A stretch of 56,832 nucleotides of DNA, taken from IMG/VR virus record IMGVR_UViG_3300020152_000004, positions 1-56,832 of that record; one strand, given 5' to 3'. The notes beneath the pieces were generated by a model. It did not search any database. It saw only the letters and a program-made list of their open reading frames with translations, and was not told where the DNA came from. Shown here in pieces: positions 12,191 to 42,090 of this stretch. The DNA comes from a virus. Both the position numbers and the translations under genes were made by a program. Positions within the stretch are counted from its first letter, which is position 1; each line of letters begins with the position of its first letter.

Positions 12191-13549
12191 ATGGCGTTCT
12201 CCGACAATTTCAACCGGGCTGACGGTACCGTAGGCACTACGAACTACGATACCGTCACCGGATTCAACCTCTGCAACATCTTCAGCAATGGCTTTCGAGG
12301 GAATGGTGATCTCTCGATGGCTCTGGTGAAGACGTCTGCTGAGGACTTCGGAGACGACCAGGAAACGCAGTTTACCGTCGTATCCGTCGGCACCGGCGAC
12401 ATCATCGGCATGGTGGTGCGCGGATCGACAGCTGGCACCGGCTACCTGTTCTGGCTGGACGGCGTCGCGGAAGCCTCCCGAGGCATATACCGCTTCGCCA
12501 GCGCTGCGTCGATGACAAAGATCAGCGGCAGTACTCAGATCATCGATGCAGTGGCTGGCGATGTCGTTCGGTTCAGGGCAGAGGGGAATACCCTCACGGT
12601 CTATGTGAATGGAGTCGCAGTCGCGACCGCCACGGACTCCACATACACGACGGGCCAGCCTGGCATCTGGTACGCTCGCTCGAATATCAACGCTTCGCGC
12701 GCGGACGACTTCTCGGCCCAATCACTCAGCAGCACGACGCCTGTCGGCCGAGATCTCACGTCGACGGCCCGCGTCCGGAATGCGATCGGACGGTCAGCAA
12801 CCTCGACTGCGAATGTCCGCGGCACGTCGACCAGGTCGGTCACGCACACGGCAAACGTACGGGCAACGGCGACCCGGTCTATCACATCGGCCGCCAACGT
12901 TCGGAACGCCTCGGGCCGATCGGGAACGTTCGAGTCCTCGGTGCGAGATCTCGCCGGCCGCGATGCGCAACTCGACGCCAATGTGCGCGCCGCGGCGGGG
13001 CAATCCGCGCAAGCCACCGCGAACATCAGGAACGTGGTCGGACGCGACCTGGGCGTCGCTGCGGATGTCGAGGGGGTGGCCGGGACTGTCGGCCGATCGA
13101 TCGAGTTCGCCGCCTCGATCCGTACCACTGCCGGTCAGGAAGCGGAGCTCGCTGCGAGCGTCCGGGCGACTGTCACCCGCTCAGGCACGGTCGCCGCCAA
13201 TGTGCGCGCCGCATCAGGAAGGGATCTGACAGTCGGCGGCGGGGTCCGGGGCCCGGCCGGAAGGAGTGTCACGGCCTCGAGTGACATCCGAGGCACCGTC
13301 CAGAGGACCGGGTCCTTCTCGGCGAGCCTGCGTGAACTGACCGGCCGCAGTCTCGGTACATCCGCGAACGTGCGCATGCTGGTCGGCCGAACAATCGAGT
13401 TGCGAGCCAGGCTGGGCGACGCTCCGGAAATTCCGCGGCCTGGCACCATCACATTGACGTTGCTCGAGAGAACAGCCACTGCAGAGGCTCTCACCCGTGA
13501 CACATCGATCACAGTGCTCGAGCGCGGTCTCACCATCGGAGTCGAATAA
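12191..13549 (+). CDS. Lectin-domain protein with sixteen 14-residue repeats
   Basis: 452 residues. Residues 1-180 form a LamG/concanavalin-A-like domain (DNFNRADGTVG start, FRAEGNTLTVYVNGV strand). Residues 186-411 are a tandem array of about sixteen 14-residue units with pattern G-R-[ST]-x4-[AS]-x-[VI]-R-x3; one unit carries a 3-residue insert. The C-terminal 40 residues form two short similar strands (ITLTLLERT, SITVLERG). The regular alternation suggests a stacked beta fibre or shaft carrying the lectin head. It is probably a virion or cell-surface fibre. No known fibre family is recognised. Confidence 0.6.
   Translation: MAFSDNFNRADGTVGTTNYDTVTGFNLCNIFSNGFRGNGDLSMALVKTSAEDFGDDQETQFTVVSVGTGDIIGMVVRGSTAGTGYLFWLDGVAEASRGIYRFASAASMTKISGSTQIIDAVAGDVVRFRAEGNTLTVYVNGVAVATATDSTYTTGQPGIWYARSNINASRADDFSAQSLSSTTPVGRDLTSTARVRNAIGRSATSTANVRGTSTRSVTHTANVRATATRSITSAANVRNASGRSGTFESSVRDLAGRDAQLDANVRAAAGQSAQATANIRNVVGRDLGVAADVEGVAGTVGRSIEFAASIRTTAGQEAELAASVRATVTRSGTVAANVRAASGRDLTVGGGVRGPAGRSVTASSDIRGTVQRTGSFSASLRELTGRSLGTSANVRMLVGRTIELRARLGDAPEIPRPGTITLTLLERTATAEALTRDTSITVLERGLTIGVE
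12746..13423 (+). repeat. Coding tandem repeat, 42-bp period, about 16 units
   Basis: In-frame repeat encoding 14-residue units that start with Gly-Arg or Thr-Arg and carry a Val-Arg pair near position 10-11. The nucleotide copies have diverged while the amino-acid pattern stays, so the repeat is under protein-level selection. Confidence 0.85.
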
Positions 13550-13860
13550 TGGCCAGAATCGGGTCCACCGTCCGGCTGACTTTCACGTTCCGCGCCTTCC
13601 CCGTGCCTCCGGCAACGGTAGGGGAGCTGGCCGACTCGAGCACGCCGGTCATGATCCAGCCGATGAAGGGGAAGAAGGCGATCGGCAGCCCGATCAACCT
13701 GATGGAGGCCGGCGGCTCACACCCCAGCCTGGGCGTCTACCAGTACGACTACGTCATCCCGGACGTCGACGCACCGGTGATCACGATCGAGGCGACCGGC
13801 ACCATCGAAGGGACGCCGTCAGTGGCGCGGGAAGGGATTCCGATCAGCTGGGGGGCGTAG
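13549..13860 (+). CDS. Small structural-type hypothetical protein
   Basis: 103 residues, beta-rich (STVRLTFTFRAFPVPP, VYQYDYVIPDVDAPVITIEA). It follows the repeat protein with a TAATG overlap and is the last gene of the rightward late transcript. It ends 17 nt inside the convergent reverse-strand gene. Possibly a fibre-associated domain; no family recognised. Confidence 0.55.
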   Translation: MARIGSTVRLTFTFRAFPVPPATVGELADSSTPVMIQPMKGKKAIGSPINLMEAGGSHPSLGVYQYDYVIPDVDAPVITIEATGTIEGTPSVAREGIPISWGA

Positions 13861-15844
13861 CGGATTTAAGATGATCAGGAAGGTACTGGCTGTGCGTGCG
13901 TTTGAGGTAGTCCAATCCTGCCGCACGATCAGCGGTAAACTGCAGCTTTTCCTCGAACATCTTCAAGCGCGCCTTACAGTCGTTGATGACCTCTGACCAT
14001 GATTTGACCCACACCGTCATCCGCAGCTGGGAGTTCTGGTAGAGGATACCGCGTGGCCGGTTGTCCTGCTGAATCTCACTACGTACGTCGGGATGGATGT
14101 CATTCGAGACAGCCCAGAACACCCACTTCGTTTCAAGATCCCGAAATCTCTCGTCGCGTTGAACCGCCAAGGCATAGCTCTTAATCTGTTGAGCCACATT
14201 CGGAGTGATTTTCTGCCTGGGTCGTTTTAGCTCGACAACCAAATGCTCTCGCTTGCTGGCATCCTGATGGTAGATGAGCCGTGACAACATCAAGTCGATG
14301 ATACCGTCGGATCCATCGCTGCGCACCACGGGAACATGGGCATCTGTTTTCTCGCCCTCGTCCTGAAGTGGGTCCTCTACTGGCCGCAGGTGCGTGGATC
14401 GATGCTGGAGAAGCACTTCATTCAATGACTCATCGTCGACAGTCAGATTGTACTCCTCTCCGAATATCCACGTCTCTCGCGCTAGGATCCGATGCAGTTC
14501 CTTACGTTCGAGTAGGGTTTTCTTTGAGACAGGATCGTAAAGCAGGATTTCTAGCCCGCGGATAAACTCCAACCGTTCCGCAACCATATTGGCGGCCTCA
14601 ATGACCGCCGAGAGTGATGTCCGTTCTAGAAGTCGGGCAAGCTCATTCTGTTTGTCCGAGGGCAAGGCCAAGACATCGCGGAAGATGCGCTGCAGCGCTT
14701 CTGGGTTCTCCTTAAGGGCGCCTTTAAGTAGTTCGAACGAAAACTTCTTGCTGGTGGGATCTGCCTCTGCGAACGAAGGCATATAGTTGTTGACGTTGAT
14801 CGCGAGAACGTCGAACATCTGCCGTTCGACCTGCTCGACCACGTCCCTCGGCTGGCCTTGATACGGGTATACCTTGTCTCGCTTCCATTCCTCCACGAGA
14901 TCCGCTCGTTGCTCTGCCGCGCGCGCTCTAAAATGATCGCGAAGCTGCTTTTTCGCGGCGGCAACAATGGGCTCAAGCACCGGATTCTCTGGTCCCAGTT
15001 CCAACAAGTTGGCTTCTTCGAGTTCCTTAATATAAGAGGTTCGCAAATAGCAAGTATACGAAAACCCCGGCGCATGAATCCGCGGCTGGAAAGAGAACAA
15101 AGAGAACCCATTCGCGTCACACAAATGCAACGATCTACTAAATTCGGTCTTCCACTCGACGATCGTTAGCACCATGTCGTGGATCCATGTGCCACCCGGA
15201 ACCTGTACGGAATCAAGCCTGTATTCTTGAACGTGCAGCTCAAGGTCTGCTGGATGCAGGCGGCTCTTGTGGTATACGACCGAGATGTCCGGGTAGTTGC
15301 GGAGATATAGTGCAAAGAGCTCCAGCAGTTCTTCGCGGGTCGATTGCTTCAAAAGGTGCGCAAGGTTGGGACGCACGCTGCCGATAGACACCGTGGTTCC
15401 TGTCTGGGTATCATCGCTCGGGATCGAATCGGAGATGTCGAATTGACGGATATCCTGCTTTGATCCCTTGATTCTGAACTCCTGCAGGCGACCAGGTTCC
15501 CCCGTGACGGTTCTCCACTCGACGTCCTCACCTAGTGCGTAGGCCCTTAACCTGCCTTTGCCTTCCTTCCCATGAATGGTTCGGCCGCGCGTGCGAGTTT
15601 TCTGACGGTTTCTCTTCCATGAACCGCCAATGCTCCCAAAGCCCGCCTCGGCGTCAGCTTCGGTCATCCCTGTACCGTTATCGGTGACCGTTATGCCGGC
15701 GATGCTCCCGTTCAACAGACTCTGGTCAAAATCGACCCGGATCAGCGTCGCATCAGCGTCGAGCGCATTCCAAACCAGTTCCGCCAAGGCGACAACGGGG
15801 CGGGCGTTCGTGAGCGCGTGAACGTGGTCGGATGCTACCTTCAT
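13844..15844 (-). CDS. GHKL ATPase fused to PD-(D/E)XK nuclease (putative defence protein)
   Basis: 666 residues from the ATG at 15844. N-terminal GHKL (MutL/Hsp90/gyrase-type) ATPase: N-box ELVWNALDADA with Glu22, Asn26, Asp29; Bergerat D-x-G-x-G at 55-59 (TVTDNGTGM); flexible G2 lid GKEGKGRLRAY near 92-101; GTTVSIG further on. A long helical middle leads to a C-terminal PD-(D/E)XK nuclease: Asp517 (GIIDLMLS), Glu538-x-Lys540 (VVELKRP), Gln552/553 with Tyr557. GHKL ATPases with endonuclease partners are known from restriction-type systems related to MORC/MutL. It is the last gene of the reverse operon, starting 11 nt after the previous stop. A TTG start overlapping the upstream TGA is an alternative. 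Confidence 0.85.
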   Translation of the reverse strand: MKVASDHVHALTNARPVVALAELVWNALDADATLIRVDFDQSLLNGSIAGITVTDNGTGMTEADAEAGFGSIGGSWKRNRQKTRTRGRTIHGKEGKGRLRAYALGEDVEWRTVTGEPGRLQEFRIKGSKQDIRQFDISDSIPSDDTQTGTTVSIGSVRPNLAHLLKQSTREELLELFALYLRNYPDISVVYHKSRLHPADLELHVQEYRLDSVQVPGGTWIHDMVLTIVEWKTEFSRSLHLCDANGFSLFSFQPRIHAPGFSYTCYLRTSYIKELEEANLLELGPENPVLEPIVAAAKKQLRDHFRARAAEQRADLVEEWKRDKVYPYQGQPRDVVEQVERQMFDVLAINVNNYMPSFAEADPTSKKFSFELLKGALKENPEALQRIFRDVLALPSDKQNELARLLERTSLSAVIEAANMVAERLEFIRGLEILLYDPVSKKTLLERKELHRILARETWIFGEEYNLTVDDESLNEVLLQHRSTHLRPVEDPLQDEGEKTDAHVPVVRSDGSDGIIDLMLSRLIYHQDASKREHLVVELKRPRQKITPNVAQQIKSYALAVQRDERFRDLETKWVFWAVSNDIHPDVRSEIQQDNRPRGILYQNSQLRMTVWVKSWSEVINDCKARLKMFEEKLQFTADRAAGLDYLKRTHSQYLPDHLKSATPPS

Positions 15845-15855
15845 TGTTACGCGCT

Positions 15856-16125
15856 TCAAGACCCGACCCTCCCTCCAACGGTAGCTGACGAGGCGTCCCT
15901 CCGCCTCGCGTTCTCGACCAACTCCCCGATCGCCGCGAACAGTTCCTCGCTGTCCACATCCGGATCCACCGGAATCACCCCTGAATACCAGCGGTGACGG
16001 TCCGTTCGGCGAAGCCCGACCCACCAAGTGGGGTTCCCGCGCTCGAGCGCCATGCGGCCGCCGATCGGCTCCAGCTCGTATGCGATCTCCCATGTGCCGG
16101 ACGGGCGTTCAACAAAACGGGTCAC
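15856..16125 (-). CDS. Small hypothetical protein of the reverse cassette
   Basis: 89 residues from a GTG whose GTGA overlaps the upstream stop, indicating coupled translation. Trp/Arg-rich beta segments (TWEIAYELEP, TWWVGLRR, RWYSGVIPVD) are followed by a C-terminal helix. No family recognised. Its place directly before the ATPase-nuclease gene suggests a partner or regulator of that protein. Confidence 0.65.
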   Translation of the reverse strand: MTRFVERPSGTWEIAYELEPIGGRMALERGNPTWWVGLRRTDRHRWYSGVIPVDPDVDSEELFAAIGELVENARRRDASSATVGGRVGS

Positions 16126-16802
16126 GGAGTCTCCTCCCGAAGTGACACTCCCGCGGCGCGGGCGGCATCCATCATACTCGTTCTGACAGCGACGTAGTCC
16201 TCAGCACTGTCCATGCTGGCGAACATTGCTCGTAGGTTGGCTTCGGCATTGTCGTCGAGATGAGGCGCTAGTATGAGAATGTTACTCTCAAACGTGCGAT
16301 GAAGAATCATTGCCTTATCTATGATGTTGTAGGAAACAACGCCGAAAAGTGTAACCGCTCCAATCAAAATGAATAGCAAGGCTTGGAGCTTTCGTAGCTC
16401 TTTCCTGTAGACGCGCGCCATCCGCTCAGCCCGTGTATCCACGTCGCCCCGCTCGCCCTCGAGTTCTACGCGCATCTCAAGCTTTCGCGTCAAACGGCGA
16501 GCCTTGGGTTTACTGAACAAGACTCCGACCGCAACCGATGGGAGCATGATAATTAGGTATAGTATCACCATCCCCGGGAGAGGACGGGGATCTAGTGCTG
16601 CCGCGGAGTAGGGAAGATCACGCACATACCGAGAGCCGAGCGTAACACCGTAGGATATTGCGGATGCTACGCGATTGAGGCCGGGCCGCGCGATGAGATC
16701 CCAGATTCCACTTCCAATCACACCTATCGCTAGAGCCCCGAGCGCCGTGACGGCGAACCTGTTCAGCCTCGAAGGCCGATCCCCCGTGCCCATGGACAGC
16801 AT
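16122..16802 (-). CDS. Membrane protein with three predicted helices
   Basis: 226 residues. Hydrophobic segments are seen at about 15-40 (AVTALGALAIGVIGSGIWDLI), 76-97 (GMVILYLIIMLPSVAVGVLF) and 138-160 (ALLFILIGAVTLFGVVSY), the last two separated by a charged, probably cytoplasmic coil. The C-terminal 60 residues form a soluble helical domain (LDDNAEANLRAMFASMDS). No known family is recognised. In an immunity cassette such a protein could be a superinfection-exclusion or membrane effector; that is inference. Confidence 0.7.
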   Translation of the reverse strand: MLSMGTGDRPSRLNRFAVTALGALAIGVIGSGIWDLIARPGLNRVASAISYGVTLGSRYVRDLPYSAAALDPRPLPGMVILYLIIMLPSVAVGVLFSKPKARRLTRKLEMRVELEGERGDVDTRAERMARVYRKELRKLQALLFILIGAVTLFGVVSYNIIDKAMILHRTFESNILILAPHLDDNAEANLRAMFASMDSAEDYVAVRTSMMDAARAAGVSLREETP

Positions 16803-16812
16803 TCAAACGCTC

Positions 16813-17025
16813 CTAATTGTATAAGCCGCGATCGATTCGCATGAGCAGATAGAGCTCCATCCGCTCGATCGCGTGCGTCAGGTCGCACACCGCCCGGGGA
16901 TTACAGCTCCACTCGAGTCGGCTTCTCCTCATCTCGAGGAGACATGCTTCGATGACGTCCCGCTCGGTGAATGGCGAGCACTCGCAGTCCACCAGGAGAT
17001 ACATGTCCTCCCGGCAACCGCTCAT
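16813..17025 (-). CDS. Small Cys-rich hypothetical protein
   Basis: 70 residues from the ATG at 17025, whose ATGA overlaps the upstream stop; a GTG 18 nt further up is possible but lacks the coupling. Mixed helix with four or five Cys (CRED, DCEC, ACLL, SCNP, VCDL). No family recognised. Confidence 0.55.
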   Translation of the reverse strand: MSGCREDMYLLVDCECSPFTERDVIEACLLEMRRSRLEWSCNPRAVCDLTHAIERMELYLLMRIDRGLYN

Positions 17026-17372
17026 GGAACGATCAGCATCCACAGGACGATCGCCACGATCACGAATGCGACCAGTTTGGCGATCTGCGTTTTGGGGCTG
17101 TCCACGGCGGATGCCGCAACAATGCGCTCTGTCTCAGCATTGGTGTGGGCCGCCCATGCCTGCAGTTCCTCGGCGTACATATCCCAGAAACGCTTCGCGT
17201 CGACTTCGGATAGGAGTGCAGCGAAACGTCGTGCCTCGTCGGTATTGTCAATGTCCACCTGGTGCATGTTCAGCCCCGCCGAGGCTGCGGCGTTCAAGGC
17301 TGCGCCGTGGCGAGCCACGAGCGACCGAACGGCGGCACGCTCGAGAGGGTGCGGCACCATCCTGGGATCCAT
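17022..17372 (-). CDS. Tail-anchored membrane protein of the reverse cassette
   Basis: 116 residues from the ATG at 17372 (AGGGA ribosome site just upstream). A soluble helical domain with charged and Ala-rich stretches is followed by a single C-terminal membrane helix (AKLVAFVIVAIVLWMLIVP) that ends the protein, the layout of a tail-anchored protein facing the cytoplasm. An upstream in-frame start at 17438 would sit inside the metallopeptidase reading and is less likely. No family recognised. Confidence 0.65.
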   Translation of the reverse strand: MDPRMVPHPLERAAVRSLVARHGAALNAAASAGLNMHQVDIDNTDEARRFAALLSEVDAKRFWDMYAEELQAWAAHTNAETERIVAASAVDSPKTQIAKLVAFVIVAIVLWMLIVP

Positions 17373-17379
17373 GCTTTCC

Positions 17380-17575
17380 CTAATCCAGATAATGATCGAT
17401 GAGTGCGCGCATGCGAATGACACGCGGCGCGAGATCACGAATCCGGTAGTCCTGCCACCCTCGGTCCTCGAGCGGAACCATCTCGCGAATTTTCGACTCT
17501 ACCCATTCCTCACCTTGGCCCAGGTGCACCTCGTCGAGCATTCCACAGAGGGCAAAGAGGTCGCTGGTCGGCTCG
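17380..17575 (-). pseudogene. Out-of-frame C-terminal part of the ImmA/IrrE-like gene
   Basis: In the -1 frame relative to the metallopeptidase gene, the sequence continues as a well-formed protein: CEPTSDLFALCGMLDEVHLG, then EEWVESKIREMVPLEDR, then RIRDLAPRVIRMRALIDHYLD, stop at 17380-17382. That stop lies 7 nt before the next ATG, exactly the spacing seen in the rest of the operon. The annotated frame instead ends in a low-quality tail at 17499. A single-base loss in the GCGCG tract near 17580 or an assembly error would explain it. Confidence 0.6.
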
Positions 17576-17897
17576 CACGCGCCGGAAGAGGATCGATATG
17601 GTGCATGATGACCGGCCCCTCCTCCTCGACGTCGCCGGCGCGGATGTGCTGCGTCTCGTGCAGAATGATGTAGCGTCGAGCTGAACCCCGGATGCCAGGC
17701 TGCAGCGCCAGGCGGAAATGAACGAGACCCCGGTCACCGAACGGGAAGGTCAACAGAGCGGGCACACTCAAACCTTCAATCGTGTGGACCCGGAGATTGG
17801 CTGCACCTGCAAGCCGGTCTGTGTCCGCGTCTGATACGGGGAATCCCCGAGCGTACTCGGGCACCACCGTTCGCGCCCAAGTGACGGCGCGCAGCAC
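17499..17897 (-). CDS. ImmA/IrrE-like zinc metallopeptidase (frameshifted C-terminus)
   Basis: About 132 residues from a GTG at 17897, 13 nt after the repressor stop; ATGs at 17996 and 18071 would overlap the repressor by 85-160 nt. The core RRYIILHETQHIRAGD contains the HExxH zinc site (HETQH). ImmA-type peptidases cleave or remove the adjacent phage/ICE repressor after DNA damage, and the gene sits directly after an HTH repressor gene here. After IMHHIDPLPARA the frame appears shifted (see 17380-17575). As written, the protein would lack its C-terminal third. M56-type HExxH-x-GD peptidases are an alternative, but no membrane helices are present. Confidence 0.7.
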   Translation of the reverse strand: MLRAVTWARTVVPEYARGFPVSDADTDRLAGAANLRVHTIEGLSVPALLTFPFGDRGLVHFRLALQPGIRGSARRYIILHETQHIRAGDVEEEGPVIMHHIDPLPARASRPATSLPSVECSTRCTWAKVRNG

Positions 17898-17910
17898 GCG
17901 ACGCTCGAGA

Positions 17911-18390
17911 CTACTCGGCCGGCTGGTCGGTGGAGCCGAGTATTCTGTCTCGGATCCGGTCGAGCGCCGCCAGCTTGTCCTTTTTCCATCCGTCATCGAC
18001 AGCGACTCCATAGACGGTCTTGACCAGGTCCCCCGGTGAATAGCGCCGGAAGGCGGTCCGGAGGCCGCCACTGACCCCCATCAGGTCCAGCAACTCCTCG
18101 ACCGCGTCCGTCGCGTAGGACCCCGCAGCTTCCGGGACCACCCCCGCCCCTGTTCCACGTGACACTAGATGGCGGTCGATGCCGAGTTCCCGTTCCAAGG
18201 TCTCGACGGCGCGCACCATGGGCCCCCGAACCTCGTCGTTCATACGCCGGGTGGGATAGTAATCCTTTGCCATATAACGATATACGGTACGGGACGGAAG
18301 CCCGAACCGTCTCTCTATGTCCTCGGCCGACGCCTGGGCGGCGACGACCTTGAATCGATCAATAAGAGCCCTCTCGCCAGATTCCGCCAC
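17911..18390 (-). CDS. HTH-domain lysogeny repressor
   Basis: 159 residues from a GTG at 18390 with a strong AAGGGG ribosome site. An upstream in-frame start at 18501 would run through the divergent promoter region. N-terminal HTH: SAEDIERRFGLPSRTVYRYM (about 20-40). The C-terminal part is helical and may dimerise (VEELLDLMGVSGGLRTAFRR). It lies divergent from a Cro-like gene across a 92-nt gap, and a metallopeptidase gene follows, the ImmR/ImmA arrangement of temperate elements. It probably represses the rightward early promoter and starts the immunity operon. Confidence 0.75.
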   Translation of the reverse strand: MAESGERALIDRFKVVAAQASAEDIERRFGLPSRTVYRYMAKDYYPTRRMNDEVRGPMVRAVETLERELGIDRHLVSRGTGAGVVPEAAGSYATDAVEELLDLMGVSGGLRTAFRRYSPGDLVKTVYGVAVDDGWKKDKLAALDRIRDRILGSTDQPAE

Positions 18391-18482
18391 GAACCCCTTG
18401 CACCTTCCGCCATGAACCGCTATGATGTGCCACGTTATCCGTATCGAACGAAACGAAACACGAAGCAAGGTAAGACGCCCAG
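18391..18482. promoter_or_regulatory. Divergent repressor/Cro control region
   Basis: Ninety-two nt between divergent regulators. It holds direct repeats of CGAA(A) type (CGAACGAAACGAAACACGAA at 18456-18475) and an A/T-richer stretch around 18420-18460 suitable for back-to-back promoters. Exact -35/-10 boxes cannot be assigned with confidence. Confidence 0.55.
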
Positions 18483-18764
18483 ATGGCCACAGGCAACGCA
18501 CTTCGAGTCGATGGACTGATCGTCACGCTGCTGAGCGGGAGAGAGAAGCTGCGTGCACTGGTGGTCAATCGAAACGGGACGATTCAAGGCTGGGCGCAGT
18601 CCCACGGGCTCTATCCCGCGCAAGTCCACATGACGCTCTCCGGGACGCGCGAATACCCCGAGGTGCGCGAGCGCCTGGCAGCCGACTTCGACATCCCGCG
18701 AGACGAAATCGACGCCCTCCTCGATGCCGATGGAGACACATCGGAAGGCAGCTCCAATGCCTGA
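18483..18764 (+). CDS. Cro/Ner-like HTH regulator
   Basis: 93 residues. The segment GTIQGWAQSHGLYPAQVHMT with the following LSGTREYPEVRERLAADFDI has the layout of Ner/Nlp and Cro-like helix-turn-helix proteins. It is the first gene of the rightward early operon, divergent from the repressor. It probably binds the intergenic operators and shuts off the repressor during lytic growth. Its stop overlaps the next ATG. Confidence 0.75.
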   Translation: MATGNALRVDGLIVTLLSGREKLRALVVNRNGTIQGWAQSHGLYPAQVHMTLSGTREYPEVRERLAADFDIPRDEIDALLDADGDTSEGSSNA

Positions 18765-19897: not shown

Positions 19898-19970
19898 TGC
19901 GGGGAGCTGAACTGGTGGACAGCTGAGGCCCATACCCTCGGTACGGTGGGTTCGATTCCCACCCCCGCTA
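19898..19970 (+). tRNA. tRNA-Met(CAT)-like gene
   Basis: Folds as a 73-nt cloverleaf: acceptor TGCGGGG/CCCCGCT with a mismatch at pair 1-72, D arm with GG at 18-19, anticodon stem TGAGG/CCTCG, loop CCCATAC (anticodon CAT), variable GTACG, T arm GTGGG-TTCGATT-CCCAC, discriminator A. Oddities are A at position 8 instead of U and C at position 33 instead of U, so it may be a degenerate or specialised tRNA. CCA is not encoded. Confidence 0.65.
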
Positions 19971-22002: not shown

Positions 22003-23142
22003 GTGAGGGGCGCCGCAGTAGCCGACCTGCACCTGGGGTTCTCTGCCTTCCCGACGTTGCGGGGGGGCAGGAACGCCCGGGAGCAGGACGTGGAGATCGC
22101 GTGGGATCGCGCGGTCGACACGATCATCACGGCACAGCCCGATCTCGTCACCGTCGCCGGTGACTGCCTCCATCACGCGCGCGTGTCCGACTACGCGAAG
22201 CGCGCGCTGCAGCTCGGCCTCCGCCGCATTGCGGAGAACACCGCGGCGCGCGTGATCGTCATTCCGGGGAACCACGACGGGAGCAAGACCGTCCAAGTCC
22301 TATCGCCGGTGGTGCTCGCGGACGGCCACCAGCGCATCCACATCGTGACGGACACTCAGCGGGTCGTTTTCACGACGCGCGCGGGCGAGCGGGTGAACGT
22401 CGCCTGCTACCCGTTCGTCGCGCTGGCCGAGTCAGGCTTGGACTCGATCGATCCGGACCCGGACTGCGACGTGAACGTGATGCTGATCCACGCGGCTGTC
22501 CGAACGTCCGAAGCGGACGGCGCGCTGCCTCGCTTCTACGCGGGTGACGTGTCGATCGACGTGGGCCGTCACGCAGAAGCCTGGGACGTCATAGCAGCAG
22601 GGGATTACCACGAGTTCACGCGGCTTCATCCGACGCGGCTGGCGTTCTACTCCGGGTCGATCGAGCGGACCAGCTCGAACATGTGGCCCGAGACCGCACC
22701 GAAGGGCGTCGTGGTTTACGACACCGAAACCAACGAGCTCGAGTTCCGCGACATCCCGACGCGTCCCGTATTTGATGTCGCCGCCCCCCATTGGCCGCTG
22801 ATGGACAAGGCAGTAAACGCCGCAGAGTTGAACATCATGCTGAGCGATCTCGCGACGAAGCCCGAATACCGAGATGCCATCGTTCGCCTGAAGGTCGACG
22901 GCTTTCCGCGAGAGGAGCGGATGCAGATCGATGCCAAGCTGGTCCGCGCGCTCAAGGCGCTGACGTTCCACTTCCAGCTGGACATCTCATTCGCCGCGCG
23001 AGAGCGGGTAGCGGCCGGCGACCGCCGGGAGCGCGCTTCGCAACCGATTGGTGTGTCGGCCGAGCAGTTCTTCGCGGAGGATCCGGAGCCGGTGCGGGAA
23101 TGCGCACTCGAGTACCTGGCCGCGGCTGGAGGTGTCGCATGA
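22003..23142 (+). CDS. sbcD: SbcD/Mre11-like nuclease
   Basis: 379 residues from a GTG directly after the previous stop. Calcineurin-type metallophosphoesterase motifs in order: VADLHLG (6-12), TVAGDCLHH (about 49-57), IPGNHDGS (about 87-94), LIHAAV and AAGDYHEF. SbcD acts with SbcC as an ATP-dependent double-strand DNA exonuclease and hairpin nuclease. The ATGA overlap with the next gene, which encodes the SbcC partner, supports the pairing. The fourth motif reads GDYHEF instead of GH-x-H, so the active site is slightly divergent. Confidence 0.85.
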   Translation: MRGAAVADLHLGFSAFPTLRGGRNAREQDVEIAWDRAVDTIITAQPDLVTVAGDCLHHARVSDYAKRALQLGLRRIAENTAARVIVIPGNHDGSKTVQVLSPVVLADGHQRIHIVTDTQRVVFTTRAGERVNVACYPFVALAESGLDSIDPDPDCDVNVMLIHAAVRTSEADGALPRFYAGDVSIDVGRHAEAWDVIAAGDYHEFTRLHPTRLAFYSGSIERTSSNMWPETAPKGVVVYDTETNELEFRDIPTRPVFDVAAPHWPLMDKAVNAAELNIMLSDLATKPEYRDAIVRLKVDGFPREERMQIDAKLVRALKALTFHFQLDISFAARERVAAGDRRERASQPIGVSAEQFFAEDPEPVRECALEYLAAAGGVA

Positions 23143-25595
23143 GGCTCGTTTCTCTGCGCCTGCAGAACTGCCGGCAACATGCCGACACGACCATCGTGTT
23201 TCCGGGCACGGGCATCACCGGCATCCTCGGCGCGAACGAGGCGGGGAAGTCCACAGTCCTCGAATGCGTGCTCTGGGCATTATTCGGCGCGAAGGACGCG
23301 CTCCGGTCCAGCGCCGAGGATTTCCGCTGGAAGCGCTCACCCGCCAAGCGGAAGGCAGTAGCCGAGCTGACGTTCGAAATCGGCGGATCCACGTACATCG
23401 TGAACCGCACCGAGGACACCGCGCATCTCTATCTCTCGACGGGCGGTGCACCGATCGCGGCCGGCACGACGCCGGTGAATGACTACCTCCGCACGCAGGT
23501 CCTGCGGATGTCCTTCGACGAGTTCACGCGCAGCCATGTCTGCCTCCAGAAGGAGCTGACTGCGCTGGCGACGTTGAAGCCGGCGCCGCGGCAGGAGTTC
23601 GTGCGCGAAGTACTCGGTCTCAACGTGCTCGATCGCGCGCTCGAGGGGTGCCGGAAGCGCATGAACGAGATGAAGCGCGAGCGCGACGGACAGCGGGTTG
23701 GCCTCGGTGAACGTGAGCCGCTCGAGACGGAACTGGAGTCCGCTCGCCAAGCGCATTCAGCTGCGGCGGATCAGGTCGCGGGGCTCGTGACTGACCGCAG
23801 CTTGGCCAGCGCCGCTGCAGACTCAGCCCGCGCTGCCGCGGGTGCGTTCGCTGCAGACGCGGAGCGGTACGCTGAGCTGCAGGCGGATGTGCGGGATGCG
23901 ACGCGCCGCGAGGCCGAGGCCCAGGAGAAGCTCACCACGCTGATGACGCAGCTCGAGGACGCGGACGAGGCGCATGCGGAGCTGATGCTGGCGGAGCGGG
24001 ATCTCGCGAGCCTGACATCCCGGCGGGATGAGATCCAGCGCGTGAAGGACCGGGCCTCCGAGCGAGCGGGCGTTGTTTCGTCGATCGCGAGCGCCGAGAT
24101 GGACCTGAATACCGCCAAGGCGACACTCGCACAACTGGATGCGACGATCGCCGCTTTCGACCCCGAGGCGTTGAAGAATGCACGGGCGTTGCACGACGCG
24201 CATACGAAGGCGCTCACAGCGGTCCGCGCGCGGATCGCCTCCGAACGGGGCCAAGCGGTCGCTCTTGCGCGCAGCACGGAACAGGACATCAACAAGGCCG
24301 CGCGCAAGATTGCGGCAATTAAGGACGCCGGCGCAGAAGGCGTCTGCCCGACCTGCCTGCGTACGCTGAGCGACACGCTCGGGCTCGTGCTCGATCGGCT
24401 GGAGGCGGAGCTGGCGGACGCGAATCGGCGGCACATCGAGGCCGTGAAGGTCGCGGACACCTACTGCGGGGACGAAAAGTCGGACGACGAACTGCTCGCT
24501 GAGGAGGATGTCAGTGCGGCGGAGGATACGGTCCGGGCGCTTCGCGTGCAGCAGACGAAGGCCGAGACCGCCGCGGCCGACCGTCCGCGGATTGCAGCGC
24601 AGATCGAACGCATCAGCACGCAGCTCGGTGAGTACCGGGAGCGGCTCGACAAGCTGCCGTCCGCCGGCACCGTCGACGAGCTGGAGCTCAAGTCGATCGT
24701 CGCGGACATCGAACGGGTCGCCGGTATCCCGAACAACCCGCGTGTACCTGGGCGGATCGCGGGGCTGCGGAATAAGGCCGGCGGACGAGACACGCTCCGC
24801 CGGCAGATCGAGGAATGGGAAAAGGCGTCACTCGGGGCCGTCGACAAGCTGCATCAGGCGAATAACGCAATCGTCGCCCTCGCCTTCGATTCGATCGCGC
24901 ACGAACAGGCAGTGCGGGCTGCGGACGTGGCCGCGAAAGAGCTGAGCACGCTGACGACGCGGTTGGCGACGGCAGAGGCGGAACTGAAGGCTGCGGTCGA
25001 CTGGCAGGGCCGGGCGTCGAAGGCGCTCGCGACGCACGACACGCGCGCGGCAGGGCTCAAGGACCTGGAGCAGCAGATCCAGACGCACGAGCGCGCGGCG
25101 ACGCGCCTGGACGACTTCCGGGCGGCGCAGGCGGCAGCGGTTCGGCCGGAGATGGAGGAGCTGATCTCTGGGCTGATCAATGTCCTCACCGATGGCCGGC
25201 ACCCGACGGTGACCGTCAACGAGGACTTCTCGCTTACGCTGCAGAAGGACGGCGTCGACGAAGCGGTGGTGTCCGGCGGGACGGAAGATCTGGCGGCGCT
25301 GGCGCAGCGCATCGCAATCAGCGTGATGAGCGAGCAGCGCGCCGGGCATCCGGTATCGCTCCTCTGGCTGGACGAACCCTTTCTGTCCAGCGACGAGACC
25401 CGCCGCGGGAACGTGCTGAATCTGATCCGGGAGCTGGGCGACCGGTTCAGCCAGGTGATCCTGATCAGCCACGTCGAGGAGACCCGCACGTGCGCGGATC
25501 ACATCATCGAGCTCGCGTACGATGAGGACGCCGGCTGCACGCGCGTCGCGGCGAACATGCCGAAGGCCGATGAGGCCGAGCTGGTGGCAGCATGA
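23139..25595 (+). CDS. sbcC: SbcC/Rad50-like SMC ATPase
   Basis: 818 residues from the ATG at 23139; an in-frame start 348 nt upstream lies inside the SbcD gene. Walker A GANEAGKST (31-39), long coiled-coil arms, a zinc hook CPTC at Cys403-Cys406, and C-terminal signature SGGTEDLAALAQR with Walker B LLWLDEP (Asp745-Glu746). Shorter than chromosomal SbcC (about 1000 residues) because of shorter arms, as usual in phages. It works with the SbcD subunit on DNA ends, probably in phage recombination or replication. Confidence 0.9.
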   Translation: MRLVSLRLQNCRQHADTTIVFPGTGITGILGANEAGKSTVLECVLWALFGAKDALRSSAEDFRWKRSPAKRKAVAELTFEIGGSTYIVNRTEDTAHLYLSTGGAPIAAGTTPVNDYLRTQVLRMSFDEFTRSHVCLQKELTALATLKPAPRQEFVREVLGLNVLDRALEGCRKRMNEMKRERDGQRVGLGEREPLETELESARQAHSAAADQVAGLVTDRSLASAAADSARAAAGAFAADAERYAELQADVRDATRREAEAQEKLTTLMTQLEDADEAHAELMLAERDLASLTSRRDEIQRVKDRASERAGVVSSIASAEMDLNTAKATLAQLDATIAAFDPEALKNARALHDAHTKALTAVRARIASERGQAVALARSTEQDINKAARKIAAIKDAGAEGVCPTCLRTLSDTLGLVLDRLEAELADANRRHIEAVKVADTYCGDEKSDDELLAEEDVSAAEDTVRALRVQQTKAETAAADRPRIAAQIERISTQLGEYRERLDKLPSAGTVDELELKSIVADIERVAGIPNNPRVPGRIAGLRNKAGGRDTLRRQIEEWEKASLGAVDKLHQANNAIVALAFDSIAHEQAVRAADVAAKELSTLTTRLATAEAELKAAVDWQGRASKALATHDTRAAGLKDLEQQIQTHERAATRLDDFRAAQAAAVRPEMEELISGLINVLTDGRHPTVTVNEDFSLTLQKDGVDEAVVSGGTEDLAALAQRIAISVMSEQRAGHPVSLLWLDEPFLSSDETRRGNVLNLIRELGDRFSQVILISHVEETRTCADHIIELAYDEDAGCTRVAANMPKADEAELVAA

Positions 25596-27297: not shown

Positions 27298-27653
27298 CGC
27301 CTAGCGCCCGCATTCAGAAGCTACGCGCAGACGCTGACCTGCTCCGTGCATACGGGCAACGTAGCGCTGCACGCCTGCTGCTGAATGTGGCCGCGGACCT
27401 CGAGACCGACCTCGCAGAGCTGGAGTCCACACCGATTGGCCGAGCGGCGTTCGCCCAGGCGGCCGGCGTCCATCCGGACAGCGTCACGCGGGCAGTCCGC
27501 TCGGGCCGCGTAACTCTCACGGTGGGCGACGTTTCCAAGGTCCAGCCGCACCGGAAGCGCGCCGCGGCACCTTCCCAGGAGCCGGGATCACCCTCCACCT
27601 TGGACCGGTTCAGCCGAAGGGCTGTTGCCACCAGTTCGAGAGGGAGGACGTGA
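27294..27653 (+). CDS. Candidate excisionase / small HTH protein
   Basis: 119 residues from the ATG at 27294 with ATGA overlap. A helical N-terminus is followed by an HTH-like segment GRAAFAQAAGVHPDSVTRAV and a basic C-terminus. It lies directly before the integrase gene, the usual place for a recombination directionality factor. Function is inferred from position and the HTH. Confidence 0.5.
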   Translation: MTPSARIQKLRADADLLRAYGQRSAARLLLNVAADLETDLAELESTPIGRAAFAQAAGVHPDSVTRAVRSGRVTLTVGDVSKVQPHRKRAAAPSQEPGSPSTLDRFSRRAVATSSRGRT

Positions 27654-27655
27654 AC

Positions 27656-28891
27656 ATGCCGATCCGGAAAGAGGCAGGGTCACACGGTTGCAAGGTGAAG
27701 TTCGGCGAGCGCGTTGACGGCGGGCCGCTCTACCTGTTCGTGCCGCGCAAAGATGGGGGCTACGACAAGGTGAGTCTCGGCCACCGCGACTGGCAGGTCG
27801 CGGAGGCGGAAGCGCTGAAGCTCGCAGCCAGGCGGCGTGCAGCACGCGAGACCACGCGTGCCGGGAAGATGCGCATCAGCGTGCTGCTCTCGCGCTACGA
27901 GAACGAGGAGACCCCACATAAGAAGGGGCAGCAGCCCGCGGAAGATCGACGCCGTGTGGAGCTCTGGCTCGCGTTCTTCGATCGGGATCCGGAAGTCCGT
28001 CACATCACGAACAACGACATGAAGCGGTTCGTCCGCATGCGACGGCGTGGAGAGATCAAGCTCCCTGTCGTCGAGCGCGCCGATGGTCGCGGCGTGATGC
28101 GGAAGCTGTCGGAGAACCCGAAGCCTGGAACCATCGGCGCCGACATCGTGTTCCTGCAGACCGTGCTCAACTGGGCGGTCGACGGCCGCATGATCCGGAA
28201 GAACCCAATCGCGACGTTCAAGCGACCGGTGACCAGAAACCCCGCGCAGCCGGCCGCGTCGATGGAGCGGTATCTCACGATCTACCGGCACACGCCGTAC
28301 GTCGAGCCGACGGGGCTTTTCCGCGTGTTCTTCGGCCTGATCGGCCATGAGCTCGACTGGCGCGTGTCCGCGCTGTGTGCGGTGAAGGTGAGTCATGTGG
28401 ACCTGCGCGCGCGAAGGGGCGCGCCGGACGGCCGTGTGTGGAAGGCCGCAGAGAAGCATGACGAGGAGGGGCACTGGGTTCCGCTCTCGCCGCGCGGGCG
28501 GAAGCTGTTCCAGCGCGCGCTCCGGATCCGCGGTGCCATCGGTGACGTTTACCTGTTCGAGGCGCCGAAGCGTCGCGGCCAGCCGTGGCGCCGGCAGTAT
28601 GCGACGTCACTGCTCGAGCGCGCGGAGGCGCGTGCAGGGCTCGAGCCGATCGAGGGCGGCGACTTCCATCCGTACCGCCGGAAGTGGTCGACGGAGCGGA
28701 AGGACGAGCCCTGGGCAGACGTTGCTGCGGTGAGCGGACGTAAGGACCGGAAGACGTTCGAGAAGTCGTACGCAAAGGCAGACGAGGACACGTCGCTGCG
28801 GGTCGCGCGCGGAAAGCGGTATGCGCGGAAGGCAGCAGCGGCGGCGCGTAACATTGGACCACAAACTGAACCACGTAAGGTAGGAAGCTAG
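27656..28891 (+). CDS. int: Tyrosine-recombinase integrase
   Basis: 411 residues. The ATG at 27656 is chosen over the GTG at 27650 because the AGGGAGG site ends 8 nt before it. An N-terminal arm-binding part (about 1-65) and core-binding part (about 65-190) are followed by the catalytic domain: Arg236 (HELDWRVSALC), His338-x-x-Arg341 (FHPYRRKW) and the nucleophile Tyr372 (KTFEKSYAKAD). It catalyses site-specific integration and excision. A tRNA-derived attP follows 47 nt after the stop. Confidence 0.9.
   Translation: MPIRKEAGSHGCKVKFGERVDGGPLYLFVPRKDGGYDKVSLGHRDWQVAEAEALKLAARRRAARETTRAGKMRISVLLSRYENEETPHKKGQQPAEDRRRVELWLAFFDRDPEVRHITNNDMKRFVRMRRRGEIKLPVVERADGRGVMRKLSENPKPGTIGADIVFLQTVLNWAVDGRMIRKNPIATFKRPVTRNPAQPAASMERYLTIYRHTPYVEPTGLFRVFFGLIGHELDWRVSALCAVKVSHVDLRARRGAPDGRVWKAAEKHDEEGHWVPLSPRGRKLFQRALRIRGAIGDVYLFEAPKRRGQPWRRQYATSLLERAEARAGLEPIEGGDFHPYRRKWSTERKDEPWADVAAVSGRKDRKTFEKSYAKADEDTSLRVARGKRYARKAAAAARNIGPQTEPRKVGS
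28853..28875 (+). repeat. attP arm-type direct repeat, left copy
   Basis: Twenty-three bases matching 29089-29111 with one difference. Each copy holds two TGGACCAC-like units separated by AAAC (the second here is TGAACCAC). It lies at the end of int and flanks the attP core, as arm-type integrase sites do. Confidence 0.7.
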
Positions 28892-29115: not shown

Positions 29116-30972
29116 ATGACGTTCCCGCAGTTTCATCTAGACTTGCACGACGAGCTGATCGTCGACCTGTTCGCCGGCGGCGGCGGCGCCTCCGACGGCA
29201 TCCGTGAGGCGCTGGGGCGCGAGTCTGACATCGCGATCAACCATGACGCCGCGGCCGTCGCGCTCCACAAGCTGAATCACCCTCAGACCCACCATCACAC
29301 GTGCGACGTCTTCGAGGTCGACCCCCGGACCGTCACCGGCGGTCGCCCGGTCGGACTGCTCTGGGCGTCGCCGGACTGCACGTATCACAGCAAGGCGCGG
29401 GGCGCGAAGCCGATACGGCACGCGAACAAGAAGCGCCGCGCGCTCGCCTGGGTCGTGACCCGCTGGTGCGCGCAGATGAAGCCCCGCGTGGTCATGCTCG
29501 AGAACGTCGAGGAGTTCGTCCACTGGGGCCCGCTCGTCGCGAAGCGCGACCCAGAGACCGGCCGCGTGCTGAAGCTGGTGAACCCGGGCGCGGACATGGA
29601 CGATGCGGACGAGTCGAAGCGGCCGAAGTACGTGGTCGCGGAACCGGGAGAGGTCGTGCCGGTGGAGCTCCAGGCTCTCACGCCGGACCCGCGCCGCCGC
29701 GCGAAGCATTTCCGCCGCTGGTTACGCTCCCTCGAGGAGCTGGGCTACGTCGTCGATTACAGGGAACTGAAGGCATGCGACTTCGGTGCACCGACGATCC
29801 GCAAGCGGCTGTTCCTCGTCGCGCGCTGCGACGGGCAGCCGATCGTGTGGCCGGAGCCGACGCACGGACCAGGGCGCGCGTATCCGTACCGCACGGCCGC
29901 CGAGTGCATCGACTGGTCAATCCCCATGCTCTCCATCTTCGCGACGAAATCGGAGGCGCGTGCGTGGGCGAAGAAGCTCGGCCAGGCGATCCCGATCCGT
30001 CCGCTCGCCGAAGCGACGATGCGGCGCGTTGCGCGCGGCGTCATGCGGTATGTGGTGAATGCGGCCCGGCCGTTCATCGTCCCCATCCAGAACGCCAGTG
30101 GCCGCGGAGCGCAGAGCGCGGACGAGCCGCTACGCACAGTGACCGCAATGCCAAAGGGAGGCGGCTTCGCTGTCGCAGCGCCGATGCTGGTACCGCGCTA
30201 TGGCGAGCGCGACGGGCAGGAGCCGCGCGTGCGCTCAACCGAGCAGCCGCTCGCGACGATTGTAGCCACCGACAACGGCGGCAGCCTCGCCGCCGCACAG
30301 CTTGCGACCTACTACGGATCGAAGTCCGATCGTGACGTGCGCGGGTCGGCAATGTCGGAGCCCGTCGACACAATCCCGACGGAGAACCGTCACGCGCTCG
30401 TCGCGTCGTTCATGGCGCGGCACTACGGCGGCGTGGTGGGCAAGGATCTTCGGGAACCCCAGGGTACCGTTCTCTCGAAGGGCGCGCAGGACCAGCTCGT
30501 CGCCGCTCACCTGTCGCACATGTATACGAGCAATACGGCCGGTGGGCAGGGCGATCCAACGCAGCCGCTCAAGACGCAGACGACGGCCAATCACGCCGGT
30601 CTGATCTACGGGTTCCTGCAGAAGTACTACGGCCAGGGCATCGGTCAGGATGCAGGCGCGCCGATGGACACCATCACGACGAAGGACCGGTTCGGCATCG
30701 TGATGGTCACGGTCGACGGCGTTCTGTTCGCGATCGTCGATATCTGCATGCGCATGCTGCAGCCGCGCGAGCTGTACAACGCGCAGGGCTTCTCGCCCAA
30801 CTACCGCATCAACTGCCAGGTCTGGGACATGACACGGAAGAAACCGCGCTGGCGCTGGCTGACGAAGACTGAGCAGGTCCGGATGGTCGGCAACAGCGTA
30901 TCCCCGCCAGTCGCCACCGCACTCGCAGCGGCGAACGTCCCCGAGCTCGCAATGCGCAAGGTGGCCGCATGA
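29116..30972 (+). CDS. DNA cytosine-5 methyltransferase
   Basis: 618 residues. C5-methyltransferase motifs: I DLFAGGGGAS (17-26), IV ASPDCTYHS with catalytic Cys88 (PDC instead of the usual PPC, as in a phage subfamily), VI MLENVEEF, VIII-like FGAPTIRKRLFLVAR, and X near the C-terminus (RMVGNSVSPPVATALAA). The target recognition region (about 325-540) consists of about six related units of pattern P-hydrophobic-x-T-[IV]-x-[TA]-K/N-x-hydrophobic-A. It methylates cytosine in phage DNA, probably as protection from host restriction. There is no matching endonuclease gene next to it. Confidence 0.9.
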   Translation: MTFPQFHLDLHDELIVDLFAGGGGASDGIREALGRESDIAINHDAAAVALHKLNHPQTHHHTCDVFEVDPRTVTGGRPVGLLWASPDCTYHSKARGAKPIRHANKKRRALAWVVTRWCAQMKPRVVMLENVEEFVHWGPLVAKRDPETGRVLKLVNPGADMDDADESKRPKYVVAEPGEVVPVELQALTPDPRRRAKHFRRWLRSLEELGYVVDYRELKACDFGAPTIRKRLFLVARCDGQPIVWPEPTHGPGRAYPYRTAAECIDWSIPMLSIFATKSEARAWAKKLGQAIPIRPLAEATMRRVARGVMRYVVNAARPFIVPIQNASGRGAQSADEPLRTVTAMPKGGGFAVAAPMLVPRYGERDGQEPRVRSTEQPLATIVATDNGGSLAAAQLATYYGSKSDRDVRGSAMSEPVDTIPTENRHALVASFMARHYGGVVGKDLREPQGTVLSKGAQDQLVAAHLSHMYTSNTAGGQGDPTQPLKTQTTANHAGLIYGFLQKYYGQGIGQDAGAPMDTITTKDRFGIVMVTVDGVLFAIVDICMRMLQPRELYNAQGFSPNYRINCQVWDMTRKKPRWRWLTKTEQVRMVGNSVSPPVATALAAANVPELAMRKVAA

Positions 30973-40520: not shown

Positions 40521-40703
40521 ATGAGGGATCTTCACAGCCGGGCGGCGCAGCTGGTCAAGGACGCATTCGAGCGTTCACGCGAACGGGAGATCGAGATCCG
40601 CGCCGAGAGCTGGCCACAGGACCCGCCAGCCGATGCGAACGCGGACTCGCAGGCGTGGGCCTATGTGCTGGCCGTGCTCGAGGAGCGAAAACCACCGAAG
40701 TAG
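40521..40703 (+). CDS. Small helical protein
   Basis: 60 residues from the ATG at 40521 (GGAG site 8 nt upstream). It is the first gene right of the operator palindrome. Mixed charged helix ending in AYVLAVLEERKPPK. No family recognised. Confidence 0.5.
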   Translation: MRDLHSRAAQLVKDAFERSREREIEIRAESWPQDPPADANADSQAWAYVLAVLEERKPPK

Positions 40704-40710
40704 GAATGCC

Positions 40711-42090
40711 ATGAGGATCATCAACGAAACCACGGAGCTGGTACCTGTCACGCAGCTCCGGCCGCACCCGAAGAACGCGCGCGCCGGCGACGTTGATGAA
40801 ATCCATTCGAGCATCCGGGACAATGGCTTCTACGGGTCGCTGGTCGTGCAGCGATCGACCGGGTACATCCTCGCAGGTAACCACCGCTTCCAAGGCGCGC
40901 TGCGCGCCGGCGCGCGCACGCTGCCGGTCACTTGGGTCGACGTTGACGACACCACGGCGCTCCGCATCCTGCTCGTCGACAACCGCACGAACGACCTCGC
41001 CGGGTACGATGATGTCGCGCTGACCAACCTGCTTGAGGAGATCCTCGAGGAGAGCGGCACCCTGGACGGGACCGGCTACGACCGTGACGCACTGGACGAG
41101 CTGCTCGCGCATGTCGCGGAGGAGGAAGCCCGCGACGAGGGCGACACGTTGATCGTCCTCCCCGAGGCGCCGAAGTCCCAGCGCGGGGAGGTGTATGAGC
41201 TCGGGCCGCACCGGCTGATGTGCGGCGACAGCACGGACCTCCGCGACGTGCAGCGGCTGATGGGCGGCGATCGCGCGCACCTCGTGAATACGGACCCGCC
41301 ATATGGTGTGTCGTACCAGGGCACGGGGTTCGACGTCATCCAGAATGACAACCTGCGCGGCGACGATCTGCTGAGCATCTTGATGCCGGCGCTGCAGCTC
41401 GCGGCCGAGTTCGCGGTGGAGAACGCGGCGTTCTACATCTGGCACGCCAGCTCGACGCGGAAAGACTTCGAGTGGGCCATGGACGCGGCCGGCCTCGAGG
41501 AGAAGCAGTACATCCTCTGGGCCAAGGACTCATTCGTCCTCGGGCACGCCGACTACCACTGGCAGCACGAGCCCTGCTTTTATGCCCGGAAGGTCGGCTG
41601 CACCCCACCGTTCTATGCCGACCGCACTCAGAGTACCGTGTGGCGGTTCGCCGCTCGGCGCGCATCCGGCGAACGGAGCGTCGCGCTCGCGAACGGGATC
41701 CGCATATCCAACGGCGCCGGGGCCGAGGTTTACGTTCAGCCGCAGGCGCCGAAGACGCGCCGCACGCGTCTCGTCCGCCTGCACGCCGGCGAATCAGTGC
41801 TGCTCGTCCCCGGACCGGGCGGTGTCACGGACCTCTGGGACGTGAAGCTGGACACCGATGCGTACCAGCATCCCACGCAGAAGCCTGTCGCGCTCGCGGT
41901 GAACGCGATTCAGAACAGTTCGCGCCCAGGCGACATCGTGCTCGACCTGTTCGGTGGTGGGGGATTCACGCTGCTCGGAGCGGAGGCCACAAAGCGCGTC
42001 GCGCGCGTAATGGAGCTGGACCCGCGCTACTGTGACGTCATCCGCCGTCGCTACGCCGAATTCGCGGGTCGGCCGGAGCTCGCGCCGTGA
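40711..42090 (+). CDS. ParB-like domain fused to DNA methyltransferase
   Basis: 459 residues. N-terminal ParB/Srx-like module (VTQLRPHPKNARAGDVDEI, LAGNHRFQGALRAG at about 50). The C-terminal N6-adenine/N4-cytosine methyltransferase has NTDPPYG (motif IV, Asp195-Tyr198) and, later, LDLFGGGGFTLLGAE (motif I), the beta-class order. QHPTQKP marks the region between. Such fusions are frequent near terminase genes and probably modify phage DNA before packaging. Confidence 0.88.
   Translation: MRIINETTELVPVTQLRPHPKNARAGDVDEIHSSIRDNGFYGSLVVQRSTGYILAGNHRFQGALRAGARTLPVTWVDVDDTTALRILLVDNRTNDLAGYDDVALTNLLEEILEESGTLDGTGYDRDALDELLAHVAEEEARDEGDTLIVLPEAPKSQRGEVYELGPHRLMCGDSTDLRDVQRLMGGDRAHLVNTDPPYGVSYQGTGFDVIQNDNLRGDDLLSILMPALQLAAEFAVENAAFYIWHASSTRKDFEWAMDAAGLEEKQYILWAKDSFVLGHADYHWQHEPCFYARKVGCTPPFYADRTQSTVWRFAARRASGERSVALANGIRISNGAGAEVYVQPQAPKTRRTRLVRLHAGESVLLVPGPGGVTDLWDVKLDTDAYQHPTQKPVALAVNAIQNSSRPGDIVLDLFGGGGFTLLGAEATKRVARVMELDPRYCDVIRRRYAEFAGRPELAP

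Follow-up and report, generated by a model that had tools for sequence, protein, structure and literature searches.

The gene and its setting in the phage genome

The window, i.e., the whole stretch of 56,832 nucleotides of viral DNA that was analyzed (IMG/VR record IMGVR_UViG_3300020152_000004), contains on its minus strand an open reading frame that was first placed at positions 13844-15844 and that comprises 666 amino acids when counted from its ATG codon (frame inspection). Most likely, these coordinates are five codons short and the true start is the TTG codon at 15859. The TTG is preferred because it overlaps the stop codon of the preceding 89-aa reading frame as TTGA (15857-15859 for the TTG), because it is preceded by the strong ribosome-binding site GGAGGGAGG, and because it matches the starts of annotated homologs, which lie about 5 aa ahead of the ATG of the window. 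Unless ATG numbering is stated, residues are counted from the TTG start (671 aa). The gene, its domains, and the adjacent features are as follows:

13844..15859, minus strand: GHKL ATPase - PD-(D/E)XK nuclease gene, 671 aa; TTG start, stop codon 13846-13844
13940..14515, minus strand: restriction-endonuclease-fold nuclease domain, about residues 449-640; E451, D522, E543xK545, Q558
14516..14989, minus strand: helical linker, about residues 291-448; helical in the model, presumed clamp or dimer arm
14990..15364, minus strand: transducer or S5-like middle domain, about residues 166-290; strands and helices in the model, Foldseek alignments
15365..15859, minus strand: GHKL (Bergerat) ATP-binding domain, about residues 1-165; E27/N31, D60xG62xG64, K82, H96GxxGxGR103
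15868..15876, minus strand: strong ribosome-binding site GGAGGGAGG, located 8 nt upstream of the TTG
15856..16125, minus strand: 89-aa reading frame; overlaps at both ends (translational coupling), its TGA stop with the TTG as TTGA and its GTG start with the stop of the preceding frame
16122..16802, minus strand: predicted membrane protein of 226 aa, same operon; hydrophobic stretches found by eye
16813..17025, minus strand: reading frame of about 70 aa, same operon; ATGA overlap with the upstream stop
17022..17438, minus strand: 138-aa reading frame, same operon; hydrophobic C-terminus
17499..18071, minus strand: peptidase-like reading frame; HETQH...GD motif, weak match to Peptidase_M56 (E 0.098), start probably nearer 17910
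17911..18501, minus strand: probable repressor at the operon head; Xre-like-HTH match below the cut-off (E 0.012), position, and divergent HTH gene
18483..18764, plus strand: small HTH protein, divergent, in a Cro-like position; PHROG 925 HTH DNA binding protein (E 1e-4)

Judged by its reading frame, the gene is intact and encodes one well-formed protein composed of an ATPase and a DNA-cutting domain. About seven leftward genes, tightly spaced or overlapping, form an operon that ends with this gene. No Pfam, PADLOC, or PHROG match was obtained for the 89-aa reading frame, and no family match above the cut-off for the 226-aa protein or, in Pfam, for the 138-aa reading frame. Together with the divergent HTH gene, the region 15856-18764 looks like a lysogeny switch or immunity region, the parts of which are poorly matched to known families. 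Therefore, expression of the gene in a lysogen seems likely. A promoter scan yielded fewer sites than were found in shuffled sequence, and thus no promoter is claimed. The phage is probably temperate, a life style that we only infer because the candidate tyrosine integrase (27650-28891) is below the Pfam cut-off and the repressor match is weak.

Several other features of the phage genome were observed. A tRNA-Met (CAT) gene is located close to the switch region (19898-19970), genes for an SbcD-like phosphoesterase and an SbcC-like ATPase lie side by side (22003-25595), and two DNA methyltransferases are encoded, a C5-cytosine enzyme (29116-30972) and a ParB-methyltransferase fusion (40633-42090). 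The C-terminal half of a virion-protein-like reading frame (12191-13549) consists of short repeats (AxVRxxxGRS...), as seen by eye in the translation.

Architecture of the ATPase and nuclease halves

The sequence-only reading had claimed that a single protein joins a complete GHKL ATPase to a complete PD-(D/E)XK nuclease, and this is borne out by a Pfam match, by structural models and Foldseek comparisons, and by residue conservation. The ATPase domain matches HATPase_c_3 with an E-value of 4.8e-15, and the N-box, the D-x-G-x-G motif, K82, and all residues of the lid are present. The catalytic residues that had been listed for the nuclease in ATG numbering, Asp517, Glu538, Lys540, and Gln553, are likewise found and correspond to D522, E543, K545, and Q558 in TTG numbering.

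An AlphaFold2 model of the whole protein, based on a 43-member alignment, reached a mean pLDDT of 87; because its pTM is 0.58, the arrangement of the domains relative to one another is uncertain. The structure prediction and the comparison with MORC- and MutL-type ATPases that had been proposed as a check gave confident models and the anticipated folds. The N-terminal approximately 400 residues match TRAP1, MORC3, MORC4, MutL, and MORC2 in Foldseek, with alignments of 330-445 columns, and the matches also cover the transducers of MORC, MutL, and TRAP1. The 400-residue middle had been regarded as unusual, but in the model it is mostly the GHKL transducer (S5) plus the helical linker expected of GHKL ATPases, and the linker presumably serves as a clamp or dimer arm. 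When the whole protein was compared with viral models using Foldseek, rIIA and topoisomerases were matched mainly via the ATPase part, and a kinship to these proteins was not adopted.

A restriction endonuclease fold of the C-terminal domain had been set beforehand as a test, and this fold was predicted when the domain was modeled alone (AlphaFold, pLDDT 91, pTM 0.87). The best Foldseek match is MspJI (E 2.9e-4, prob 1.0), further matches are EcoO109I, FokI, AspBHI, and McrBC, and there is a weak match to E. coli SduA. The sequence signal of this domain is faint in the window protein itself, the C-terminal part of which matches HSDR_N_2 at an E-value of 0.06 only and has no strong Pfam match; HSDR_N_2 was matched in 36 of 43 relatives, with a best E-value of 1e-6. 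A sequence-profile search of the nuclease against the PDB gave no usable match.

The active-site residues are conserved far beyond chance in the sequences of the family. E27, N31, D60, G62, K82, H96, G97, G100, G102, R103, D522, and K545 are invariant in 113 of 113 full-length relatives, and G64, E543, and Q558 occur in 112 of these. E451, a candidate for the first glutamate of an E-D-ExK pattern, is likewise invariant. Therefore, both active sites seem to be under strong constraint throughout the family. The expectation that both halves should be active stands as far as the residues are concerned; catalytic activity of the ATPase and of the nuclease is what we infer from their conservation.

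Distribution of the family and gene neighborhoods

PHROG 6203, a phage protein family without assigned function, matches the whole protein (residues 7-638, E 4e-67). Relatives with 34% identity are carried by two Pasteurella phages, and 41 viral contigs in IMG/VR contain relatives, most of them full length. The location in a phage is therefore not unusual, in contrast to the sequence-only reading. Relatives were also found on 48 plasmid records and, with one single pattern, at 311 confirmed stretches of species genomes, and homologs occur in a patchy fashion across about 10 bacterial phyla, plasmids, and phages. The closest relative, from a Myxococcota bin, is 49% identical. In the tree one group of 21 rows contains 18 viral rows, while the remaining viral rows are scattered among bacterial ones, and the placement of the window protein is without firm support. 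The TerL protein of the phage has distant matches only, and a search with two neighboring proteins for the nearest relatives of the phage, intended to test presence or absence of the gene at this site, found none.

The GC content of the gene is 54.4%, compared to 65.0% in its surroundings, and is lower than that of every other 2-kb stretch sampled in the window. The same tendency is seen in the family: at 31 of the 32 viral loci, and at 65 of the 78 loci in genomes, the gene is below its surroundings in GC content. By its base composition the gene is apparently foreign cargo in the phage. In the viral contigs L094, L113, L117, and others the family gene is close to CI-like repressor genes, and in L104 and L105 it comes after lysis genes. 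The copies in L063 and L120 are interrupted by an in-frame stop, and thus the gene is sometimes lost.

The genome position invites the question whether the protein acts during lytic growth, as a weapon or host-takeover nuclease directed against host DNA, rival plasmids, or phages. Phage-borne nucleases with such roles exist, and the gene adjoins late tail and lysis genes. However, it runs against the late genes and is apparently transcribed together with the probable repressor, and chromosomes and plasmids, on which a nuclease with this purpose would hardly be of use, frequently carry relatives. We regard a function of this kind as highly unlikely.

A contribution of the protein to the replication or recombination of the phage itself, as a DNA-processing or repair factor in the manner of a MutL- or SbcCD-like helper, is also rather unlikely. 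The combination of GHKL domain and nuclease resembles MutL with its endonuclease domain, and the phage encodes the SbcC- and SbcD-like proteins mentioned above. But MutL models score far under their cut-off (35.6 versus 180 bits) and match residues 15-66 only, the gene is on the opposite strand to the replication genes and its GC content is much lower, and the presence of the family is patchy, its members being located at numerous unrelated sites of phages, plasmids, and chromosomes.

A common partner gene was sought by clustering of the neighbors within 5 kb at about 113 loci, and none was found; neither a methyltransferase nor a helicase is a conserved neighbor across these loci. The gene stands alone in most of them. 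The commonest neighbors are type I restriction genes, present at 8-9 of the loci, mostly from related Streptomyces. At individual loci the gene lies next to other defense genes, namely Drt2, dcm together with LlaMI, an Abi gene, or the gene of an ISP restriction enzyme, and GajA-, AriA-, Old-, or PtuA-like proteins occur in a few of 107 immediate neighbors, which is a raw tally without a control set. The sequence-only reading had linked the protein to restriction-type systems. This link holds insofar as the protein is related to the MORC/MutL-type ATPases known around such systems, but a restriction-modification setting is unsupported for most members because a methyltransferase or helicase is not conserved next to the gene.

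The same observations bear on the possibility that the protein is a BbrUII/HgiDII-like type II restriction enzyme and that a phage methyltransferase protects the DNA of phage and lysogen. The best curated name match is indeed NF050001 (BbrUII/HgiDII), with which the protein shares the N-terminal GHKL domain, PADLOC REase_II models are matched as well, and the phage possesses the C5 methyltransferase and the ParB-methyltransferase fusion. However, the match to NF050001 is limited to residues 20-171 and reaches 64.6 bits at a cut-off of 550, the two phage methyltransferase genes are at least 13 kb away, the cognate methyltransferase that would be expected next to a BbrUII/HgiDII gene does not adjoin it, and methyltransferases are not conserved neighbors over about 110 loci. 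A restriction-modification pair was therefore rejected as the main reading, and is unlikely.

Comparison with related proteins and proposed function

The joining of a GHKL ATPase and a nuclease in one protein had been considered unusual, but it has been described before. Iyer, Abhiman and Aravind (2008; PMC2292703) defined paraMORC3 proteins, which have a GHKL domain with all motifs, an S5 domain, and a C-terminal restriction endonuclease fold with an E-D-ExK pattern; a subset stands alone without neighbors, and the authors predicted a role with restriction systems. The window protein shares the N-terminal GHKL domain and the full set of its ATP-binding motifs, the S5/transducer domain that follows it in the model and in the Foldseek alignments, and the C-terminal fold with E451, D522, E543, and K545. 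It is thus of the paraMORC3 type, an assignment that was made by the published features of the family. In contrast to the role predicted for paraMORC3, no conserved restriction partner was found here. A relative is present in Streptomyces avermitilis, a species shown in a figure of that paper, the overlap concerning the species.

The second precedent is VcSduA, a single Vibrio cholerae protein with an N-terminal GHKL domain and a C-terminal DUF4263 nuclease, named 'type I-D Shedu' and located on a genomic island (2025 Nature Microbiology, PMC12137116). VcSduA protects against Drexlerviridae and vibriophage X29, protection is lost with E27A or K557A, and the protein was modeled by its authors as an entwined dimer with a clamp-like middle (PMC12137116). 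A single gene, the GHKL residue E27, a (here presumed) clamp-like middle, and a C-terminal PD-(D/E)xK domain are common to VcSduA and the window protein. The lysine of the ExK motif is K557 in VcSduA and K545 in the window protein, and the motif spacing is 530 versus 518 residues. The two proteins differ in that VcSduA carries DUF4263/SduA_C, whereas the window family scores HSDR_N_2, and in that VcSduA is found on a genomic island, while the gene of the window is found in a phage.

The Pfam domain SduA_C is absent in 43 of 43 members, with the full-length proteins searched at E 0.1 and the C-terminal parts at E 0.5, and PADLOC SduA matches are weak and occur in 8 of 43 members at best. Therefore, a Shedu assignment was rejected, and what links the protein to VcSduA is its architecture and a distant homology. 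In the alignments a Vibrio GHKL-SduA_C protein (L175:484-2577) was used as a stand-in for VcSduA. It has a GHKL domain, a weak SduA_C match (E 1.7e-4), an N-box E34, and an ExK K569, and is likely to be a relative of the VcSduA subfamily. The stand-in aligns colinearly with the window family over both domains (hhalign 97%, E 8e-11), and the match is less clear for the nuclease part alone (60%). A search for SduA_C in 225 Vibrio genomes gave 18 matches; the frames were no longer than 542 aa, and an evident GHKL fusion was not among them. The E. coli SduA (PDB 8ps5) likewise has a nuclease with the restriction endonuclease fold, but lacks the GHKL domain; it is a weak structural match (Foldseek rank 21, E 0.12, prob 0.63, TM 0.40 on the query) that ranks by E-value below MspJI, EcoO109I, and FokI. 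From these comparisons the window protein in all likelihood works like VcSduA, yet it is not called Shedu.

We therefore consider it likely that the phage carries, as cargo, the gene of a self-contained anti-phage nuclease that belongs to the paraMORC3/VcSduA type. The nuclease is probably an ATP-gated, prophage-borne enzyme that shields the lysogen from other phages. The protein would dimerize, and its GHKL domains would close after binding ATP, in the manner of MutL, MORC, and Hsp90. A clamp around DNA may be formed by the transducer together with the helical arms. When this clamp closes, or when ATP is turned over, on a structure in foreign DNA or in replicating phage DNA, the C-terminal nuclease would be freed to cut. 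Expressed with the repressor in the lysogen, the protein would protect the host, and hence the prophage, from other phages. A bolder proposal, which is tentative and falls somewhat short of an even chance, is that proteins of the PHROG 6203 type represent a separate class of GHKL-gated anti-phage nucleases, HSDR_N-like and not Shedu, that has been repeatedly acquired by phages as prophage-encoded immunity.

The fusion of a GHKL ATPase and a nuclease is not a new kind of protein, but a widespread single-gene architecture that was already known, and the present results extend published work modestly and do not describe a novel type of system. They make a concrete test possible, namely, whether a GHKL clamp gates the nuclease and whether its target differs from that of Shedu. 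A phage protein family without assigned function, PHROG 6203, is now tied to a proven anti-phage architecture, and phages themselves are shown to carry such proteins, in many cases as cargo of low GC content that lies close to the repressor or within the late region.
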